The position numbers and the translations under genes were made by a program. 37,073 bases of DNA from a virus: IMG/VR virus record IMGVR_UViG_3300037246_001242, positions 1-37,073 of that record. One strand, given 5' to 3'. Below, piece by piece: positions 554-22,230 of the stretch (its first letter is position 1; every line of letters starts with the position of its first letter). The notes below the pieces were generated by a model. It was not told the DNA's origin. It searched no databases and saw only the letters and a program-made list of their open reading frames with translations.

Positions 554-588
554 TTTTCGCGAGTTTGAACTCACTGCTATATAAACCC

Positions 589-656
589 AAAGTATATATT
601 ATAACATTGATACTTTATATCATTGATACTTATCTATATGTTATAATATATACTTT
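589..656. repeat. 17-base inverted repeat enclosing 11-base direct repeats
   Basis: AAAGTATATATTATAAC (589-605) is the exact reverse complement of GTTATAATATATACTTT (640-656). The spacer holds CATTGATACTT twice (605-615 and 621-631, 16 bases apart). Fifteen bases of the right arm recur at 856-870. The arrangement is typical of iteron-type initiator sites in an AT-rich unwinding region; that role is inferred. Confidence 0.6.
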
Positions 657-855
657 CACTTTACTACCGTATAAGTATAGAATAGGGTACTAACTAATGT
701 TATATAATGAGCATTAGTATGGCATACGTTAAGTACTGGTTTTAGCGGTGGGTTAGCGTGTACCCATTAGTGTGATTTGGCCTCGGATCGGCCTCGGTTT
801 GGCCTGGATCATGGTCCCGGCTGGGTTTTTGGTTCTGTTCTGTCATGTATAAATA

Positions 856-870
856 TTATAATATATACTT
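856..870 (+). repeat. third copy of the AT-rich box
   Basis: TTATAATATATACTT matches 641-655 exactly. It is followed by a degenerate copy around 882-894 and then directly by promoter P2, which links the repeat family to this promoter. Confidence 0.5.
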
Positions 871-900
871 ACATAAATGTATAAATATATACTTTTATAC

Positions 901-966: not shown

Positions 967-1227
967 ATGAAGTTCAAAGAATTAGTAATTAATGAGATGT
1001 TTGAATTCGACCGTTCAGGTTTGCCGCTCTGTCATGGACTAAAACATGGACCGTGGATAAAAATATCGGCACGCAAATACATTCATAATGAGTATACCCG
1101 TATTGAATACCGTATTGGGGCTATCAATGTAAAGGTAGAAAAACCCAAACCAGTATGCACTCCGATTGACTTCTTGAATCCAGCAGATCGGCAACGAATT
1201 GAGGTATATCAAGCTAATAGACAATAA
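967..1227 (+). CDS. small phage protein, unknown
   Basis: An 86-residue protein with no recognised domain. AAAGGG six bases before the ATG and the context TTTGATATG support this start; promoter P2 lies just upstream. It is rich in charged residues and tyrosine and contains the segment KFKELVINEMFEF near the N-terminus, a pattern I associate loosely with small phage proteins of unknown role. Its stop codon overlaps the start of the structured element 1226-1278, so the 3' end of its message would fold into that hairpin. Confidence 0.65.
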   Translation: MKFKELVINEMFEFDRSGLPLCHGLKHGPWIKISARKYIHNEYTRIEYRIGAINVKVEKPKPVCTPIDFLNPADRQRIEVYQANRQ

Positions 1228-1278
1228 ACTCCATAACCGACAGCCGTCAAGGATAGACGGCTCAAGGTTATGCAGTTT
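1226..1278 (+). ncRNA. structured intergenic element, copy 1
   Basis: Nested complementary segments: AAACT (1226-1230)/AGTTT (1274-1278), ATAACC (1233-1238)/GGTTAT (1266-1271) and AGCCGTC (1242-1248)/GACGGCT (1256-1262). A second element at 1500-1556 has the same order of stems with different bases in the apical stem. Each starts on the stop codon of one small gene and lies before the next. It has no T run, so it is probably a structured mRNA element, processing signal or attenuator. Confidence 0.55.
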
Positions 1279-1306
1279 AACAGAGTTTAACTAAAGGGGA
1301 TATGAT

Positions 1307-1501
1307 ATGTTATACCAAAAAGCAAAAGTCGAAAACGGTCAATTAGTAATTACTGAGATAAAGGTGATTGACCAAAGCAAGTTAACCAATGATTGCTGGC
1401 TAATACAATTTGATGGCTTATTAGCTTGTGAGACATGCGAAGTCAAAGATACACCGGAATGTGGCAGCCAGGCAATACGCAAACAGCTACTAAAGCAATA
1501 A
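1307..1501 (+). CDS. small phage protein, unknown, cysteine-containing
   Basis: A 64-residue protein. AAAGGGGA at 1293-1300 and the GATATG context support the start. A CETC pair followed by EVKDTPEC gives three closely spaced cysteines near the C-terminus, suggesting metal binding, but I recognise no family. It lies between the two structured elements and its leader repeats the GAGTTTAACT-AAAGG block found before the genes at 967 and 4049. Confidence 0.6.
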   Translation: MLYQKAKVENGQLVITEIKVIDQSKLTNDCWLIQFDGLLACETCEVKDTPECGSQAIRKQLLKQ

Positions 1502-1556
1502 ACTCCGCAACCGAGAGCCGATTTATGTCCCTTGTCGGCTCAAGGTTATGCAGTTT
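1500..1556 (+). ncRNA. structured intergenic element, copy 2
   Basis: AAACT (1500-1504)/AGTTT (1552-1556), AACC (1509-1512)/GGTT (1544-1547) and AGCCGA (1516-1521)/TCGGCT (1535-1540). The lower stems and flanks match copy 1, while the apical stem differs by paired changes (GTC/GAC against GA/TC) and the loop is longer. Conserved pairing with changed sequence is what a selected RNA structure would show. Confidence 0.55.
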
Positions 1557-1560
1557 ATCT

Positions 1561-1588
1561 TTAACAATATCTCAATGCGTGATATGCT
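1561..1588 (+). promoter_or_regulatory. possible weak promoter
   Basis: TTAACA (1561-1566), a 16-base spacer and TATGCT (1583-1588) precede the gene at 1660. Both boxes depart from consensus, unlike the other promoters here, so this is tentative. Confidence 0.3.
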
Positions 1589-1659
1589 ATTACTTGTAGT
1601 GTTGGCATATCTGGCCAAACAGCGATTTATGGCGTTCTACAATAAATGGGAGAAATAAC

Positions 1660-1893
1660 ATGGCAATCCAAAGAAGAAAACGAAACGAATTGTTAACCAA
1701 ACAACACGACTGTTGCAACCTATGCGGCCACCACTTCTCAAGAGGACTACAAAACTGTTATGACGAAGCAACCGACACGCTGTTATGCCGCAACTGCCTA
1801 ATGCTGCTCACGTTTTTGCGCGTAGCTGTTGTGAAGGGTATGGATTTAGTTAAGGCTGCTAATTATGACATGGATAACCGGATACCAGCTTAG
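1660..1893 (+). CDS. degenerate endonuclease VII-like zinc protein (paralogue 1)
   Basis: 77 residues. Two Cys-x2-Cys knuckles (C19/C22 and C43/C46) flank a short segment containing C33-Y-D35. The layout matches the recombination endonuclease VII/HNH fold (T4 gp49-like), whose members normally have an Asp-His-Asp-His cluster before the second knuckle. Here both histidines are missing and only one aspartate remains. The protein at 4753 shows the same replacement, so this looks like a conserved variant rather than decay. It probably keeps zinc and may bind DNA or RNA; cleavage is doubtful. The start has GGGAG at 1648-1652. Family assignment is moderate, activity unknown. Confidence 0.6.
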   Translation: MAIQRRKRNELLTKQHDCCNLCGHHFSRGLQNCYDEATDTLLCRNCLMLLTFLRVAVVKGMDLVKAANYDMDNRIPA

Positions 1894-3743: not shown

Positions 3744-3959
3744 ATGAAAGCAGAACGAGCAGAACAAAAACAGGAATTTGTACCAGTAATAGTAACACTG
3801 GAAAGTCAAGAAGAAGTGGATTCTCTTTATACAATAGGGAATCACGTGAAAATTGGTAGAGCTTTGCCCGCGTTAAGTCGTTGTTATCGTCAGTTCGCAC
3901 CTTTTGTTTCTGGTGGCGAGTATAAGCTATGGCACGACCTTGACAAAGCAATACGCTAA
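3744..3959 (+). CDS. small phage protein, unknown
   Basis: 71 residues with an acidic and glutamine-rich N-terminus and a helical C-terminal half (IGRALPALSRCYRQFAPFVS). AAGTGAGGT at 3729-3737 supports the start. No domain is recognised. Its stop codon is the first base of the outer stem of the element 3957-4036, the same stop-on-stem arrangement seen after the genes at 967 and 1307. Confidence 0.55.
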   Translation: MKAERAEQKQEFVPVIVTLESQEEVDSLYTIGNHVKIGRALPALSRCYRQFAPFVSGGEYKLWHDLDKAIR

Positions 3960-4036
3960 ACCCGCAAGCAACGGTCAACTGCAACGTCCGAGCGTTAGAG
4001 GTCGTGACTACCGGACGGTCAGAGTTTATGGGTTTA
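3957..4036 (+). ncRNA. structured intergenic element, possible third member
   Basis: TAAACCC (3957-3963) pairs with GGGTTTA (4030-4036), and an inner stem GTCCG (3986-3990) pairs with CGGAC (4012-4016). It begins on a stop codon and leads into a GTTTAACTGAAAGG leader as the elements at 1226 and 1500 do, but the stems differ and the loops are larger. Membership of the same family is tentative. Confidence 0.4.
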
Positions 4037-4048
4037 ACTGAAAGGAAT

Positions 4049-4210
4049 ATGGTGGAACATAACTATCTAATACTATCAGCACGTTTAACAGAACTGGAAA
4101 TGACTTGTTTGGCGTATTGTCAAATATGTAATGATTGCGCAGCCGATGGCGAATGTGAGCTACAAGAACGGGCGGCTAATATTATTGCAGAAAATACAAA
4201 TAAGACTTGA
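4049..4210 (+). CDS. small cysteine-containing phage protein, unknown
   Basis: 53 residues if the ATG at 4049 is used. The spacing to GAAAGGA (4040-4046) is short, and an alternative ATG at 4028 has no ribosome binding site, so the start is uncertain. The middle contains C-x2-C-x3-C and a later Cys (CQICNDCAADGEC), a compact zinc-binding pattern on an otherwise helical protein. No family is recognised. Promoter P5 overlaps its final codons. Confidence 0.5.
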   Translation: MVEHNYLILSARLTELEMTCLAYCQICNDCAADGECELQERAANIIAENTNKT

Positions 4211-4235
4211 CAAGGGGTTTCGGTTATGGTATAAT
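4207..4235 (+). promoter_or_regulatory. consensus sigma70 promoter P5
   Basis: TTGACA (4207-4212), a 17-base spacer and TATAAT (4230-4235): both hexamers and the spacing match consensus exactly. It begins within the end of the previous gene and precedes the run of overlapping genes from 4263 to at least 5037. It is the strongest promoter in the window by sequence. Confidence 0.85.
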
Positions 4236-4262
4236 ATGGGGAATGAATAGGAGAACTAAAAT

Positions 4263-4424: not shown

Positions 4425-4756
4425 AAAAGAAAAGAACACTTAACCAAACATGGGTACTATGTCTCAGGATGTGGCGGTGGATTGCTAAGGTGTGGCAAAC
4501 TCCGCGTTATAGGCGATATGATGTTATTGTACTCAAGGATATGTGGCTTAGGAAAAACGGTTTTCGTTATATACGGGCGGATTGTTTTTTCTGTGATTAT
4601 AAAGGAAGTGACCTGTGCTGTGACCAGGCTTGCCTCGGATCACTTGTTAATCCTGAATTTAACTGTTGTAATGATGATTATAACTATGTACACAAACCAG
4701 TCGAGTTTTACAAAGAACTCCTGCGGTTAAACCGAATACGAAAGGCCAAGAAATGA
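4421..4756 (+). CDS. cysteine-rich phage protein, unknown
   Basis: 111 residues with a basic tryptophan-rich N-terminus, a middle cysteine cluster and a lysine-rich tail. The cluster contains CFFC, CC, a single C and CC in about 35 residues (DLCCDQACLGSL and ECNN-like NCCNDD), suitable for two metal sites. The pattern resembles anonymous cysteine-rich proteins of large environmental phages. It overlaps its neighbours by 4 bases on each side, so it is translationally coupled in the P5 operon. Function unknown. Confidence 0.6.
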   Translation: MKKKRTLNQTWVLCLRMWRWIAKVWQTPRYRRYDVIVLKDMWLRKNGFRYIRADCFFCDYKGSDLCCDQACLGSLVNPEFNCCNDDYNYVHKPVEFYKELLRLNRIRKAKK

Positions 4757-5037
4757 CAATAAACAAGTACAGGCTCAAAGCCACGCACGGGATCACCCCC
4801 GACCAACTTCGTAAGCAATTCTATACGAACCAGAACAGACGGTGTGCTGTCTGTGAAAACGAGCTTGAGTTTGGTCATGCAACTTGTTATGATGGGCCAA
4901 GTGGTAAGGTGGTGTGTCGGAGATGTAAGATGTTGTTGAACGCCATACGGTTGGCATTGGGTGATAGACTGGACCGGGCGATGGCGTTGGTGTCGGGTAG
5001 TAAGGATGGTGACGGGGATAACGGTCGTGCCGATTAA
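4753..5037 (+). CDS. degenerate endonuclease VII-like protein (paralogue 2)
   Basis: 94 residues. The N-terminus (YRLKATHGITPDQLRKQFYT) is the usual lead-in of endonuclease VII family proteins, followed by C31-x2-C34, then C45-Y-D47 and C55-x2-C58. Compared with the normal Asp-His-Asp-His-x2-Gly-Lys-Val segment, this protein reads C-Y-D-G-P-S-G-K-V: both histidines are gone and one Asp is kept. The 1660 gene shows the same C-Y-D. T4 endonuclease VII resolves branched DNA; here nuclease activity is doubtful and zinc/DNA binding more likely. An acidic-glycine tail ends the protein. It overlaps the previous gene by 4 bases. Confidence 0.65.
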   Translation: MTINKYRLKATHGITPDQLRKQFYTNQNRRCAVCENELEFGHATCYDGPSGKVVCRRCKMLLNAIRLALGDRLDRAMALVSGSKDGDGDNGRAD

Positions 5038-5790: not shown

Positions 5791-7723
5791 CTGGCAAACT
5801 AAAATACAATACGTCCGGGGTGTCGGGCCGACAAAAGCCACCGAACTCAAAAGCATGGGCATCGAGACAGTAGGTGATTTACTCGAATACCAGCCCAACC
5901 ACCATATTTACCCCGGCATAACTGCAATCAAAGACCTCAAGGAAGGCCATGCCATAATCAAGGCTAAGATAGTTAGCATTGATAGACTCCCAGGTCGAAC
6001 ACCAATCGTTGAAGCGAAACTGAACGATGGGACAGGAACTTGCAAGGCAATGTGGTGGAATCAGATATTTATTCTCCAAAATCTACGGCCTGGAATGACA
6101 GTGACATTCTGGGGTAAGTATAAGGCTGGTGTTTTGCAACAGCCGAAATTCTCAACCTATGGGTTGATGAATTTGGAGAATATTACTGGTGGGGATTATG
6201 GTGTCCACAACAGGACGATGAAGATTGCGCTGAAGGAAGTATTGAGTAGCGCAGAGATACCTAATATATCTGGTGGGGTTCCAACGCTTGAGACTTTCCG
6301 TTCATTACATTCCCCAAAAAACAATGCTGAGTATAAAAAAGCGTTGGAACTCCTCAAGTTTAATGAACTGCTCCTACTGTCGTTGGCAATGTTGAAGCGG
6401 CGGCAACAGGCTCGGTCTGGGGGTGCTTCTGTTATTCCTTTTAATACCCCAACAGACCAAAAAATATCGGGTTATTTTCCGTATAAATTTACATTAGAAC
6501 AAAATAAGGCTATTGGAAGCATTGTTCTTGACCTTCATTGTACTGTCCCCATGAACCGGCTTCTACACGGCGAAGTGGGAAGCGGAAAAACAGCCGTTGC
6601 GTTTTACGCGGCTATGCTCGCGGCCCTGAATGGAAAACGGACACTGATACTCTGCCCGACTACTATCTTGGCTCAGCAACATTATGATACTCTACGGGAT
6701 ATGGGGTGGGATGATGTTGAATTAAGATTAAGTCATACAAATAAGATTAAAATAGATAAATATTGTAAATCAATTGTTATTGGAACACATAGTATATTAA
6801 ATTGTCCGATGTTGCTTAAATCCGCTTCCCTCGTAATCATAGATGAGTTTCAGAAATTCGGTGTAGAACAACGTGCCAAAATACAGAAACACAATCCCCA
6901 TACCCTCTTAATGTCGGCCACACCCATTCCCCGGACACTGGCTATGTCTGTGTTCGGGGATTTGGATGTGACCGTAATACGCGAACTCCCGATTAAGCGT
7001 GGCCCGGTTGTCACCCGATGGGTACTACCCTTGAAACGGGAACAGATGTATGAGATTATCGAAAAGGAACTGGTTAAAGGAAAACAGGTGTATGTAGTGT
7101 ATCCTCGTATTGACGGTGGGGAGGATGTGGAATCAGCAGAACGGGGTTTTCGTAAAATATGCAAACGATTTTGGGATGATTATGACGTTCAATTACTTAC
7201 GGGACGTGCCCCACAAGAATCTAAAACAGAAGTGCTTCGGTCATTTCGAGAAGGCCACACAGACATCCTCGTCTCAACTATAATAGCTGAGGTCGGACTT
7301 GACAACCCAAACGCATCAGTCATGGTAATAGAAGGTGCTGATAGGTTCGGACTGTCCCAACTCCATCAACTTAGGGGCCGAATATGTCGGTCAAAAGACA
7401 CCACGTTCTGTTTCATGGTATCAAACACGGCCAATGAAAAGTCTATCGCCCGGCTTGATGTCATGGAGAAGTGCAATGACGGATTTGAAGTGGCTGAGTA
7501 TGACTTACGGTTACGGGGGCCGGGTGAGATGTTCAGCACCCGGCAGCATGGACTCCCTGACTTGAAATTTGCCTCGTTGTTGTATGATTATGACTTGCTG
7601 GTGAAGGCCCGTGAGTTGGCCGGTGAGTATATTGGTAAGTTGGATGAACCCAGTAATGTTGGGATAAAACAGATGTTGGAAATAAAATATGGTGATACGA
7701 TTAAGTTAGGAGAAATTGCATGA
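5783..7723 (+). CDS. recG-like: RecG-like ATP-dependent DNA helicase
   Basis: 646 residues from the ATG at 5783; an upstream ATG at 5750 lies inside the previous gene and neither has a strong binding site. The N-terminus has the RecG wedge signature (VRGVGPTKATELKSMGI). The motor follows: Walker A GEVGSGKT at residue 263, a DExx box written DEFQ at 354 followed by KFGVEQRAKI, SATPIPRTLAM, and the second RecA fold with STIIAEVGLDNPNAS and FGLSQLHQLRGRICRS. RecG regresses stalled forks and processes branched DNA. Residues in the helicase motifs look intact; DEFQ differs from the common RecG DEQH. Bacterial RecG has a DEQHRFGVEQR box, so homology is clear. It ends in a 4-base overlap with the next gene. 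Confidence 0.9.
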   Translation: MYNWQTKIQYVRGVGPTKATELKSMGIETVGDLLEYQPNHHIYPGITAIKDLKEGHAIIKAKIVSIDRLPGRTPIVEAKLNDGTGTCKAMWWNQIFILQNLRPGMTVTFWGKYKAGVLQQPKFSTYGLMNLENITGGDYGVHNRTMKIALKEVLSSAEIPNISGGVPTLETFRSLHSPKNNAEYKKALELLKFNELLLLSLAMLKRRQQARSGGASVIPFNTPTDQKISGYFPYKFTLEQNKAIGSIVLDLHCTVPMNRLLHGEVGSGKTAVAFYAAMLAALNGKRTLILCPTTILAQQHYDTLRDMGWDDVELRLSHTNKIKIDKYCKSIVIGTHSILNCPMLLKSASLVIIDEFQKFGVEQRAKIQKHNPHTLLMSATPIPRTLAMSVFGDLDVTVIRELPIKRGPVVTRWVLPLKREQMYEIIEKELVKGKQVYVVYPRIDGGEDVESAERGFRKICKRFWDDYDVQLLTGRAPQESKTEVLRSFREGHTDILVSTIIAEVGLDNPNASVMVIEGADRFGLSQLHQLRGRICRSKDTTFCFMVSNTANEKSIARLDVMEKCNDGFEVAEYDLRLRGPGEMFSTRQHGLPDLKFASLLYDYDLLVKARELAGEYIGKLDEPSNVGIKQMLEIKYGDTIKLGEIA

Positions 7724-13644: not shown

Positions 13645-14806
13645 ACCAATGTCACTATCAGCAACATCTATTAGTTGTTTTAAGGCGTGTCCAATGCGAT
13701 ACTACCACAGATATGTCCTCGGCCTCGTACCCGATGAGGACACGGACAGTCAACGAGTGGGTACAAATTGGCATCGGATACATGAGATAGCCGATATGGA
13801 ACCGGGTGGGGTGTGTGAATGTGACGAGATAAACTTGGCTGCGGGTGATCCAAGTAGTCCCAACCCCAACTGCCCCCTCTGTTCCGGTACAGGGGTATTC
13901 CCAGACGACCCAATGGACGCTGTAATTGCCCACCTTAACCAAGCATACGCAACCCCGCCGATTTCCAAGACCATCGAGGAGTGGGAAACAGAACGGATTA
14001 CACTTCTCTATTCTCTGGTAGGTTATCAATGGTACTATAACGATGCCGAGTACAAGGTTGAACAACTTGAACAGAAGTTTGACCTTCCCCTACGCTCGCC
14101 CATCACCGGCAACAAACTCCGGGCCAGATTAAAGGGTAAGATAGACCGTGTGTTCTCAGCAAGCATCGCCAACAGGTTTGTTCACGAATACAAGAGTACC
14201 AGTAAGAGCATAGACCCGGACTCGACCTATTGGAACCACCTTACACTTGACACCCAGACCCGGCTCTACACCTACGCTGCTAAAGAACTTGGTTTGGGGA
14301 TGTGTGGGGTGTTGTACGATGTGTGGTCCAAACCCAAGACCCGGCCCAAGAAACTGACCCAAGGTGACAGTAAGAAGTTCGTGGCCGATGGGATGTACTG
14401 TGGGGAGAAGTTTGAAGTAGTATACGAACCTGGTGTTAGTGGATTTCATGTCAACGGTGGACCGGCTACAGTAGAAATTGGAGCCAAACCAGGAACATTC
14501 GCCGTCAGAGAAACCCCAGAGATGTACGGGGCACGACTTCTACAGGACATCACCCAGCGACCAGAGTTCTATTTTGCAAGGCGGGAGATAGCCCACACAG
14601 CCAATGACATTGAGAAGTTTGAACGGCAACTCTATAATATCTATAAAGGTATTGGGAACATGACTAAAACTGATGGATGGTGGGAAGATGAAAATGCGTG
14701 CGAGGCCACTTTCAAGTGTTCGTATCTTGGCTTTTGCTATAACCATATTGATGTTGGGTCGGACGAAGTGCCCGATGGGTTTAGAAAGATAGGGGGTAAG
14801 AGATGA
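13637..14806 (+). CDS. Cas4/RecB-like PD-(D/E)XK nuclease with Fe-S-type cysteines and zinc insert
   Basis: 389 residues. The nuclease core has SATSISCFKACPMRYYHRY at the N-terminus, GTNWHRIHE (H46, H49), GKIDRVF with D170, and HEYKST with E184-x-K186. One N-terminal Cys (C14 or C18) and three C-terminal cysteines (C355, C361, C367 in a YLGFC context) match the 4Fe-4S arrangement of Cas4, AddB and related exonucleases. An insert at about residues 59-88 has C60, C62 and C79PLC82SGTG, a DnaJ-like zinc finger not usual in this family. It probably resects ends for the Sak4/SSB genes just downstream. Confidence 0.8.
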   Translation: MNKPMSLSATSISCFKACPMRYYHRYVLGLVPDEDTDSQRVGTNWHRIHEIADMEPGGVCECDEINLAAGDPSSPNPNCPLCSGTGVFPDDPMDAVIAHLNQAYATPPISKTIEEWETERITLLYSLVGYQWYYNDAEYKVEQLEQKFDLPLRSPITGNKLRARLKGKIDRVFSASIANRFVHEYKSTSKSIDPDSTYWNHLTLDTQTRLYTYAAKELGLGMCGVLYDVWSKPKTRPKKLTQGDSKKFVADGMYCGEKFEVVYEPGVSGFHVNGGPATVEIGAKPGTFAVRETPEMYGARLLQDITQRPEFYFARREIAHTANDIEKFERQLYNIYKGIGNMTKTDGWWEDENACEATFKCSYLGFCYNHIDVGSDEVPDGFRKIGGKR

Positions 14807-16853: not shown

Positions 16854-16869
16854 CAATCCGAAGATGACT

Positions 16870-16900
16870 ACTACCCCGTCAGCTTGACGGGGTAGTTTTT
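16870..16900 (+). terminator. Rho-independent terminator
   Basis: Perfect 11-base stem ACTACCCCGTC (16870-16880) / GACGGGGTAGT (16886-16896) with a 5-base loop and a run of five T ending the hairpin (16896-16900). It lies between the ssDNA-binding gene and the radical SAM gene and overlaps the leader of the latter. This is the clearest terminator of the + strand block and may partly uncouple the primase from upstream genes. Confidence 0.85.
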
Positions 16901-17612: not shown

Positions 17613-19867
17613 CAACCGACTTCCAAGAGCTTCATGACATATACATACGGAACATACAGATGTTCCCCTCCGTGCTCAAGGAGTTATCGAACCAATTGGG
17701 GGTGTCGATAACTTCCTTGAGCCGGATTGGGGTCGGCCTCGACCCCGTGAATGAGTACGGGATGTGGGCTTGGGTGTTCCCGGAACGGAACGAGAATGGG
17801 GACATAATAGGATTGTTGAATCGGTACGCAGATGGTTCTAAGTTAATGGTCAAGGGGTCTAAACGCGGTCTGATCTATGAGATTAATCATGGGCAAAGAG
17901 AATATGAAAAGAAAAACTGGGTTAGAGTTTCCATCGAGTTTCCGTGTTCATTATGCGGGAAAGCTGACGGGTGTATGTATCCTGAAGGAGAATACGAAAA
18001 CCCAAACGCCATCGTCTGTGTCCATATCTCAGAAGGTTCTGATAAACCCCTGTCACTTGGTTATTTACACATACTTGACAAAACCAGGGCAATTGCCAGA
18101 ACTGGTGGACACTCAATCCTACACGCTTCCCCCCACCCGGTCTTGGTTGTGGAGGGTGCATCGGATGTTTGCGCAGCTATGGACTTGGGCTTCACGGCTG
18201 TGGGACGGCCCTCGGCAGAAGGTGGGACCAAACTACTCCCCAAGCTATTACGAGGCAAACAGACAGTCATCATTGGGGAAAATGATTCAGGGCCGGGACG
18301 GGCCGGAATGGAAAAAGCCTTTATCGTACTCAAGGACGGCTGTTCATCCTGTGTCAAAATCCTCCCCCCGGCAGAGGTCAAAGACCTCAGACAATGGAAA
18401 ATAGCCGGGCTAACGCAACAGGAACTTCTCGATTATATTGAGAAAACAGGTGACTCATCAATGAGTCCTGATATATTCGAGGATGACATAGCATACACAG
18501 TGGCTAAGACTTGGCTGAAACAGGACAAGATTGTTGATGGTAAATTGTTGTTGAGAACATTTCGTAAAGGGTTCGTTCAATTCGATGGACATTGTTACCA
18601 TGACATAGCAGACGAACTAATACACGGCCAGCTATATGACTACCTTGCAAAGAAATCCTTTATCCACGCTGATAAAACAGTTCGGGCGTACAAACCAACC
18701 CGTGCTAAATTATATGATATTCTGGATGCTTGTAATGCGTTCTGCCCCATAGAGGCCCAACCCCCGACTTGGCTCGATGACTCTCCCCACCCCGACCCGC
18801 AACGGTTGATTACATTTGAGAATGGTATCCTCGATGTGAACGACTATATCAAAGGCAAGGTGACACTCCACAACCCAACTCCTGATTTCTTCACTTTTAC
18901 CGTTTTGCCATACAAGTTCGATGAAAACCTCAACTCAAAAATATGGGAGGAATTTACTAATGACATTTTTAACGAAGATAAAGATAAGGTTGCGCTTCTG
19001 GCGCAATGGTTCGGTTACAATTGTGTGCCCGACCTCTCTTACGAAAAACTTATGTTGTTCACTGGGCGACCTCGCAGTGGAAAATCCACCACACTTGAGG
19101 CCTTACAAGCGATGCTTGGAAATAACAATTGCTGTGAAACATCTTTCCAAGCTCTTGCCGGGGCATTTGGTTACCAGCCTCTCATCGGGAAACTCAGTGC
19201 TGTTATTGGGGACGCAAAATCGCCTAAGCGTGGTGAAGCGGAAGCTGTTCTTGAAAAGATTCTCCACATCACTGGCGGAGATGCAGTCAGTGTTAACATT
19301 AAAAACAAAGCCGCCCTCCCACTCATTCGACTCATGTGTCGGTTTACCATCGCTATGAACGACCTCCCGGCCTTCACCGACCACAGCCGAGCATTGGAAT
19401 ACCGTACCAACATTCTGACGTTCAACAACTCGTATGTAGGTCGAGAGGACAGAACACTCAAACAAAGACTAAGACAGGAAGCTGGGTCGGGCAAGCTAAT
19501 TAATTTCGCTCTACAAGGATTGGCCTCACTCTACAAAGGTAATGACTTTATTGTGCCAGCAGAATCAGCTATGACTATGAATACATTCCGGGAACTTGTA
19601 TCCCCCATCGTGGAGTTTACTGATAACTGTCTTGGTAGCGTTGAGAACAATGGTGTACCAGCAGATTACCTTTATGATCTATGGAAGTGGTGGGCCAAAC
19701 GGGAGGGTAGGAACGCTGGGTTTAAGAGTACGTTCATTCGTAACCTATTGTCAACTATGACCAATGCCCTACAGATTAGGGAGGGGGAAGTGGGCAATAT
19801 GGATAGGGTTATAATGGGTGTTAAGGTGACAGATTGGGCAGAGAAAGAATATTTGAAAGGGGAATGA
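17609..19867 (+). CDS. primase-helicase: zinc motif, TOPRIM and SF3 helicase
   Basis: 752 residues. The N-terminus has a zinc motif (CSLCGKADGC, later CVH, about residues 113-140). A TOPRIM core follows: VLVVEGASDVCAAMDLG near residue 180 and IIGENDSGPGRAGMEKA near 215, giving the E and DxD-like metal sites. The C-terminal half is a D5-type SF3 helicase with a Walker A GRPRSGKSTT near 486, a SAVIGDAK strand, and FTIAMNDLPAF as sensor motif with Asn. It primes and unwinds DNA at the fork. No separate replicative helicase is visible in the window. It starts with an ATGA overlap. Confidence 0.9.
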   Translation: MTTDFQELHDIYIRNIQMFPSVLKELSNQLGVSITSLSRIGVGLDPVNEYGMWAWVFPERNENGDIIGLLNRYADGSKLMVKGSKRGLIYEINHGQREYEKKNWVRVSIEFPCSLCGKADGCMYPEGEYENPNAIVCVHISEGSDKPLSLGYLHILDKTRAIARTGGHSILHASPHPVLVVEGASDVCAAMDLGFTAVGRPSAEGGTKLLPKLLRGKQTVIIGENDSGPGRAGMEKAFIVLKDGCSSCVKILPPAEVKDLRQWKIAGLTQQELLDYIEKTGDSSMSPDIFEDDIAYTVAKTWLKQDKIVDGKLLLRTFRKGFVQFDGHCYHDIADELIHGQLYDYLAKKSFIHADKTVRAYKPTRAKLYDILDACNAFCPIEAQPPTWLDDSPHPDPQRLITFENGILDVNDYIKGKVTLHNPTPDFFTFTVLPYKFDENLNSKIWEEFTNDIFNEDKDKVALLAQWFGYNCVPDLSYEKLMLFTGRPRSGKSTTLEALQAMLGNNNCCETSFQALAGAFGYQPLIGKLSAVIGDAKSPKRGEAEAVLEKILHITGGDAVSVNIKNKAALPLIRLMCRFTIAMNDLPAFTDHSRALEYRTNILTFNNSYVGREDRTLKQRLRQEAGSGKLINFALQGLASLYKGNDFIVPAESAMTMNTFRELVSPIVEFTDNCLGSVENNGVPADYLYDLWKWWAKREGRNAGFKSTFIRNLLSTMTNALQIREGEVGNMDRVIMGVKVTDWAEKEYLKGE

Positions 19868-21946: not shown

Positions 21947-22230
21947 TGCACATTATCTCTCGAACACAACTGCTCACCTGGCTCGCTGACCACCCACCAA
22001 ACAGGGTGGTTCAGCGAGCCTTGGACCGGGGTCGTGTCACAGTACACGGTCTCTATAAAGGCGGTTGGGTGGTCGAGGCCGAGTACCTTGGGCAGAGTTA
22101 TGTTGTTGGTATCAAGCCTGTTGGGATTGATGGTCGGTTGATATGTGGGTTACTGAAACGAGTACCTGTTGATGACTATGTTGGTGGGGATAGTCCATTG
22201 TCGAAAGGGGATAAAGATGAAAGAGTTTAA
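21946..22230 (+). CDS. small phage protein containing a strong RNA hairpin
   Basis: 94 residues: RTQLLTWLADHPPNRVVQRA at the N-terminus, then a beta-rich middle (VVEAEYLGQSYVVGIKPVGI). No domain is recognised. The codons for LADHPPNRVVQRALD lie in the inverted repeat 21980-22020, so the sequence is constrained by the RNA structure. TAATG overlaps the previous gene and its last codons overlap the next gene by 14 bases. Confidence 0.5.
   Translation: MHIISRTQLLTWLADHPPNRVVQRALDRGRVTVHGLYKGGWVVEAEYLGQSYVVGIKPVGIDGRLICGLLKRVPVDDYVGGDSPLSKGDKDERV
21980..22020 (+). promoter_or_regulatory. strong intragenic hairpin
   Basis: GGCTCGCTGA (21980-21989) pairs with TCAGCGAGCC (22011-22020) and CCACCC (21990-21995) pairs with GGGTGG (22004-22009), one bulged T and an 8-base loop: 16 pairs in 41 bases. 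No T run follows. It begins 34 bases after the ATG, so it could pause ribosomes or protect the message. Confidence 0.6.

Follow-up and report, generated by a model that had tools for sequence, protein, structure and literature searches.

Covarying hairpins anchored on stop codons between successive small genes of an uncultivated phage

Two neighbouring gaps between tiny genes of a phage hold similar inverted repeats, each beginning on the stop codon of the gene before it, which raises the question of whether these repeats are selected and at what level they act. We analysed the whole 37,073-base virus record, hereafter the window, with all coordinates given on its + strand. The window encodes a Pol I-like DNA polymerase, a RecG-like helicase and a DNA primase, and its left 5 kb (+ strand) is a run of tiny genes, among them genes A and B with the elements E1 and E2 behind them (Table 1). 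A first-pass annotation had placed both elements on the stop codons of tiny genes, which here encode 86 and 64 aa, and had proposed a selected RNA class that tunes expression of successive small genes. We find that the elements exist as described, and that the original observation is real and stronger than first claimed.

Table 1. Positions of the elements, neighbouring genes and leaders in the window and in related virus records
Feature	Record	Positions	Strand	Description
Gene A, 86-aa ORF	window	967..1227	+	its TAA forms the first paired triplet of E1
E1	window	1225..1279	+	starts exactly on TAA of gene A
Leader GTTTAACTAAAGGG	window	1285..1298	+	Shine-Dalgarno of gene B; near copy of the 946-959 and 4032-4045 leaders
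Gene B, 64-aa ORF	window	1307..1501	+	anchor gene used to find relatives
E2	window	1499..1557	+	starts exactly on TAA of gene B; same plan as E1
Small membrane-protein gene, MQFIFNNISMRDMLLLVVLAYLA...	window	1548-1658		behind E2; homologous to L127 4527-4598
71-aa ORF	window	3744..3959	+	TAA starts E3; PHROG 32527 (unknown function), E 4.5e-6
E3, diverged member	window	3957..4038	+	covariance model R2 match, and folds; starts on TAA of the 71-aa ORF
Leader GTTTAACTGAAAGG	window	4032..4045	+	carries the Shine-Dalgarno for the gene behind E3; same sequence as 946-959
Family copy	L127	4193-4247	sense	directly after gene B orthologue; positional orthologue of E2
Family copy	L127	6822-6886	sense	starts on TAA of a 73-aa gene
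Family II copy	L005	6905-6966		
Family II copy	L005	7350-7395		
Family II copy	L123	1719-1765	-	
Family II copy	L125	12318-12364	-	

In the predicted folds, E1 consists of a lower helix P1 (UAAACU/AGUUUA), a 1x1 C.C mismatch, a middle helix P2 (CAUAACC/GGUUAUG), a 3x3 internal loop (GAC/CAA) and an apical helix P3 (AGCCGUC/GACGGCU) with a 7-nt loop, and E2 repeats this plan with the same P1, a mismatch, a shorter P2, a 3x3 loop GAG/CAA and a P3 of AGCCGA/UCGGCU below a loop of 11-13 nt. The lower and apical stems proposed earlier (AAACT/AGTTT, AACC/GGTT, AGCCGTC/GACGGCT and AGCCGA/TCGGCT) are thus all present in the folds. Folding energies are -27 kcal/mol for E1 and about -24.5 kcal/mol for E2, with z-scores of the minimum free energy against dinucleotide shuffles of about -8.1 to -8.5 and of -5.7 to -6.5, respectively; none of 200 shuffles was as stable as either element, and when the entire + strand of the window was scanned by z-score, E1 ranked first and E2 fourth. 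The two elements share an identical 21-nt 3' arm, flanking gene B on both sides, which occurs twice in the window against an expectation of 0.00 by chance. Very stable hairpins (z about -7) also lie within coding regions at 17665-17728 and 21969-22032, for example GCTCAAGGAGTTATCGA...TCGATAACTTCCTTGAGC in the primase gene.

The earlier claim that paired changes between E1 and E2 preserve pairing stood for one pair (U-A to A-U, the sixth of the apical stem) and failed for the middle stem, where CAU/AUG of E1 becomes CGC/AUG and E2 is left with six pairs, including one G-U, plus one C.A mismatch, against seven pairs in E1. With a single compensatory pair within the window, the claim depended on homologues.

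Relatives were sought through gene B, whose homologues occur in five virus records, L123 (72% identical), L127, L129, L130 and L131, with no match in named phages or plasmids. Its neighbours differ in each relative, so that flanking gene content is modular, and in L129, L130 and L131 no element follows it. The gene A product matched nothing in Pfam or PHROG and its relatives were absent among the viral contigs searched; gene B as a partial duplicate of gene A was rejected, the single match being weak and 16 residues long (E 0.029). A further relative, L005 (73%), is without genes A and B, E1 and E2 upstream of a shared endonuclease VII-like gene. Two short CxxC-type proteins of the window (1660-1893 and 4753-5037) are conserved in L005 and apparently also in L003, the second of them weakly resembling recombination endonuclease VII (Pfam E 0.0057, below cutoff). 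AT-rich stretches with many short direct and inverted repeats (window 580-900, L005:4440-4760, L127:3480-3870) adjoin the small-gene region on its left in three related phages and are candidates for a replication origin or regulatory region.

A covariance model built from E1 and E2 (R1) found the L127 copy at 6822-6886, a site that had not been pre-selected, with 37.7 bits (E 3.7e-8), and this copy was used to rebuild the model as R2. Directly after the gene B orthologue of the same record (G005), the sequence TAATAAACTCCGCAGCATTGCCCAGTTGTTACCCTGGGCAAGGCTATTGAGTTTATTC follows the plan of E2 with a different apical stem, GCCCAG/CUGGGC, and its E-value falls from 0.011 with R1 to 6e-5 with R2, which matches positions 4193-4246. 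The family comprises five copies in two phage records (E1, E2, E3 and two in L127), every one of them sense-oriented and beginning on a TAA stop codon or, in one case, 3 nt after it. The best R2 background match in 1.4 Mb of other DNA, a sample biased because part of the element had served to retrieve it, reached 21.3 bits, and three background matches (L055, L111 and L056), the two highest-scoring among them, were rejected as either coding or a terminator. Scanning viral contigs for the exact 21-mer gave no match, a 14-mer scan of genome contigs gave chance matches only, and of 66 loci from a relaxed pattern scan L127 alone was genuine (the same site appearing again as L138). At blastn sensitivity E1 had no match in named phages, the rest of the window showed no dispersed copies, and no Rfam 15 family exceeded its gathering threshold, the best sub-threshold match being RefA5, antisense, with 17.7 bits against a cutoff of 91.

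E3 had been noted as a possible third element of the same placement with other stems. The placement holds and its upper part does differ from E1 and E2, with a tentative predicted fold; its lower helix UAAACCCGCAAGC/GUUUAUGGGUUUA, 13 nt per arm, is instead homologous to the family according to R2 (21.8 bits, E 0.0037). Since this score barely exceeds the background maximum, the match convinces only when combined with position and with the arm UAAACC-CGCAAGC, which E3 shares with an L127 copy. Its stability is no better than that of shuffled sequences (z -1.0). E3 thus turns out, as judged from its sequence, to be a probable diverged family member and not an unrelated structure.

To score covariation, the five copies were aligned by hand according to structure, over 20 pairs. 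Pairing is present in 83 of 92 cells, a level reached by none of 5000 column shuffles, and seven of the 20 pairs carry compensatory changes (P1 pair 6; P2 pairs 9 and 13; P3 pairs 15, 16, 19 and 20), which 0.3% of 5000 column shuffles attained. Conservation extends to primary sequence, with P1 pairs 1-5 invariant and the non-Watson-Crick CCGC/AU.. retained at the P1/P2 junction, and the conserved unpaired CCGC and AAGG suggest that the element may be more than a generic double-stranded site. The first-pass annotation would have fallen had a search seeded with its two copies yielded no further homologues with covariation; such homologues were found, and they bear out that a structured element between the small genes is under selection. 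Action as RNA rather than as a DNA palindrome, and tuning of expression, are the hypothetical part of that annotation.

Upon examining the surroundings of the elements, we observed a constant order of stop codon, hairpin and Shine-Dalgarno in E1, E3, both L127 copies and the hairpins of L130 and L131 described below, with the Shine-Dalgarno about 4-16 nt beyond the 3' end of the hairpin. The leader GTTTAACTRAARGG, which contains the Shine-Dalgarno, follows E1 and E3 and precedes gene A (at 946) without a hairpin; in the form GTTTAACTGAAAGG it has two exact occurrences and one with 2 mismatches. The 3' arm of E3 extends into the leader of the next gene. Behind E2, the start codon of the membrane-protein gene lies inside the 3' arm, with AAGG merely 2 nt upstream, whereas the homologue in L127 (MLFNNIKMQDMLLLVV) stands after another, 82-aa gene and comes with a Shine-Dalgarno of its own; compared with L127, the window lacks one whole gene exactly after E2.

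The same layout was also observed with unrelated sequences in other phages. A second family, with the core CAAUAU-CCRG-CAUAGYGAU-CYGG-CAUUAC, lies directly after stop codons in L005, L123 and L125, and its model R3 identifies four copies in three records, of which the L123 copy holds the position of E1 upstream of gene B. Between copies of this family the 9-bp P1 has changed at most of its pairs and still pairs (AGCCTATCA/TGATAGGCT versus GGCTGGCTG/CGGCCAGCC). An initial suspicion that family II (CCRGCATAGYGATCYGG...) and the family of E1 and E2 were one was dropped; because R3 finds no copy in the window, family II is kept separate. BLAST with one family II copy gave no match in named phages or plasmids. 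The gene upstream of the L123 element (L123:1779-2186, - strand) encodes HRNGDPALRD with GTGATCCTGCATTACGGG, which resembles the element core GTGATCCGGCATTACCGG, and the element may derive from such coding repeats or the resemblance may be due to chance. L005 carries two related genes resembling HNH homing endonucleases (6996-7349 and 14193-14687), and family II elements flank the first on both sides.

Unrelated to E1 and E2, three sister hairpins in L130 (G007) with four compensatory pairs stand shortly before GGAGG, and further unrelated hairpins of the same layout lie between stop codon and Shine-Dalgarno in L131 (G008). In L130, a 91-kb phage record, covarying hairpins (at 2111, 2548, 3404, 3905 and 4466; also in L210) occupy several operon gaps between stop codon and GGAGG, often with a second short hairpin immediately before the Shine-Dalgarno. 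Across nine phage records, with simple ORF calls taken as genes and a threshold of z < -4, hairpins anchored on the stop codon were found at 11 of 611 gene ends and 13 of 3058 control anchors (odds ratio 4.3, p = 0.0008). That one geometry recurs with sequences that are unrelated suggests a widespread device that has been overlooked.

We consider the elements to be, with a probability of roughly 0.45, intercistronic mRNA hairpins that would process or stabilise transcripts of the early small-gene region. The element fills the gap from the stop codon of a tiny gene to the Shine-Dalgarno of the next, and in a polycistronic early mRNA it would form an irregular stem of about 24 bp (a lower helix of 13-14 pairs, the 3x3 internal loop and 6-7 apical pairs). 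This stem, whose homology, sense orientation, compensatory pairing, position and missing terminator tail are observed, could be bound or cut by a host RNase specific for double strands, such as RNase III, cleavage being the step that we infer. As in T7, a cut would separate the messages, so that the upstream one would end in a protective structure and the downstream one would begin with a 5' end ready for ribosomes. With the stop codon built into the basal helix, a ribosome terminating there would briefly open the lower stem, and what happens at the junction might then depend on whether the upstream gene is translated. That the sense-strand RNA acts rests on the constant orientation and on the G-U pairs of the G007 hairpins, and not on thermodynamics: in the four family copies that fold well, the antisense fold is in each case as good or slightly better, and G-U pairs and A.C mismatches are near-equal in frequency in the E1/E2 family, so that similar folding of both strands does not prove which one acts.

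Hairpins directly after stop codons are typically terminators, and the sequence behind E2, ATCTTTAAC, is moderately rich in T. We nevertheless regard ordinary or degenerate intrinsic terminators as very improbable, because a U-tract is absent: no run of at least four T follows any of the five copies (tails AACAGAG, TCTTTAA, ACTGAAA, TTCTGAG and ATTTGAA), and a terminator scan calls none of the elements, whereas the window does have normal T-tract terminators at 2881-2929 and 16867-16900. The earlier statement that this is not a standard terminator therefore holds. Lying between genes and immediately before the repeated start-associated leader GTTTAACTGAAAGG, an imperfect inverted repeat could instead be an operator bound as DNA or RNA by a phage regulator, or could contain a promoter, like the ESAS of cluster K mycobacteriophages; in Adephagia the cited passages place SigA-like promoters within the 46-47 bp ESAS motif (PMC11373665). 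The promoter-like pairs from a search for SigA-type promoters were confined to the surroundings of E1, whose end TTAACA-18-TATGAT overlaps, and of E2, behind which TTAACA-16-TATGCT lies. The putative -10 after E1, however, abuts the start codon of gene B, so a promoter there cannot drive this Shine-Dalgarno-bearing gene; the L127 copies show no obvious promoter of that kind, the 13-bp SAS consensus GGGATAGGAGCCC has 0 matches in the window at up to 2 mismatches, and an apical stem that varies in sequence yet remains paired is expected of an RNA structure and not of a DNA operator. We judge such an operator or promoter rather unlikely.

The constant geometry, with the stop codon in the stem and the Shine-Dalgarno beyond it, would also suit an RNA element that governs translation between neighbours, insulating them or coupling reinitiation, and the start of the homologous membrane-protein gene within the 3' arm of E2 agrees with this. 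To this we likewise assign a low probability, given that the stems do not sequester the downstream Shine-Dalgarno and that numerous adjacent gene pairs in the same phages are without a hairpin. The modular flanks of gene B, the identical 3' arms on its two sides and the whole gene missing exactly after E2 are what a mobile or recombination-promoting palindrome acting as DNA at cassette boundaries (compare integron attC and REP-like sequences) might leave. This is improbable in view of the lack of dispersal in the rest of the window, the invariably sense orientation and the family II stems, in which nearly all sequence has changed and pairing is kept; UAAAC/GUUUA does not follow the attC R-box rules (RYYYAAC...GTTRRRY), and an integron attC-like site was rejected, as the arms AATAAAC... 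and GTTTAAC/GTTTATC fail the R boxes.

The reading as an intercistronic processing or stabilising hairpin bears on the early regions of phages, where long strings of tiny unknown genes are expressed from shared transcripts at levels poorly understood beyond T7 and a few models; a covarying element anchored on stop codons is a sequence-defined, directly testable handle for uncultivated phages. It is an unlikely, more far-reaching prospect that the elements represent a new class of gene-boundary RNA, with the stop codon in the basal pairs and the junction cut or kept according to upstream translation, built repeatedly from unrelated sequence.

Among known systems, the lambda sib retroregulator, which acts on a single gene, and the L17 downstream element are alike in being structured RNA directly downstream of a possibly regulated gene, whereas in the window phage several copies stand in series. 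Regulation through 3'-UTRs is mentioned for bacteria and a phage (PMC2864571). The irregular stems between T7 early genes (R1.1 and relatives), which RNase III is reported to cut in mRNA maturation and protection (PMC8708148), share with our elements the intercistronic position in the early region (co-transcription being presumed here), the internal loop and the absence of a terminator tail, and the 20 consensus pairs with a 3x3 loop compare with a T7-type stem of at least about 12 bp. They differ in that in the phage elements, where cleavage is putative, the stop codon forms the stem base and the copies have primary sequence in common. Architecturally, the ESAS of cluster K mycobacteriophages come closest (PMC3203893, PMC11373665, PMC12699233). 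According to the passages cited, ESAS are likewise imperfect inverted repeats with a variable spacer, lying between non-structural genes and upstream of a subset of genes with a start-associated leader, and an inverted repeat precedes the leader GTTTAACTGAAAGG or its near copy after E1 and E3. ESAS differ in sequence and in the putative SigA promoter inside them, and anchoring on a stop codon is not described for ESAS in the same passages. The sequence family is new to Rfam and its kind is known in outline from the T7 sites and ESAS; the unusual part is the stop-codon anchoring and its recurrence with unrelated sequences.
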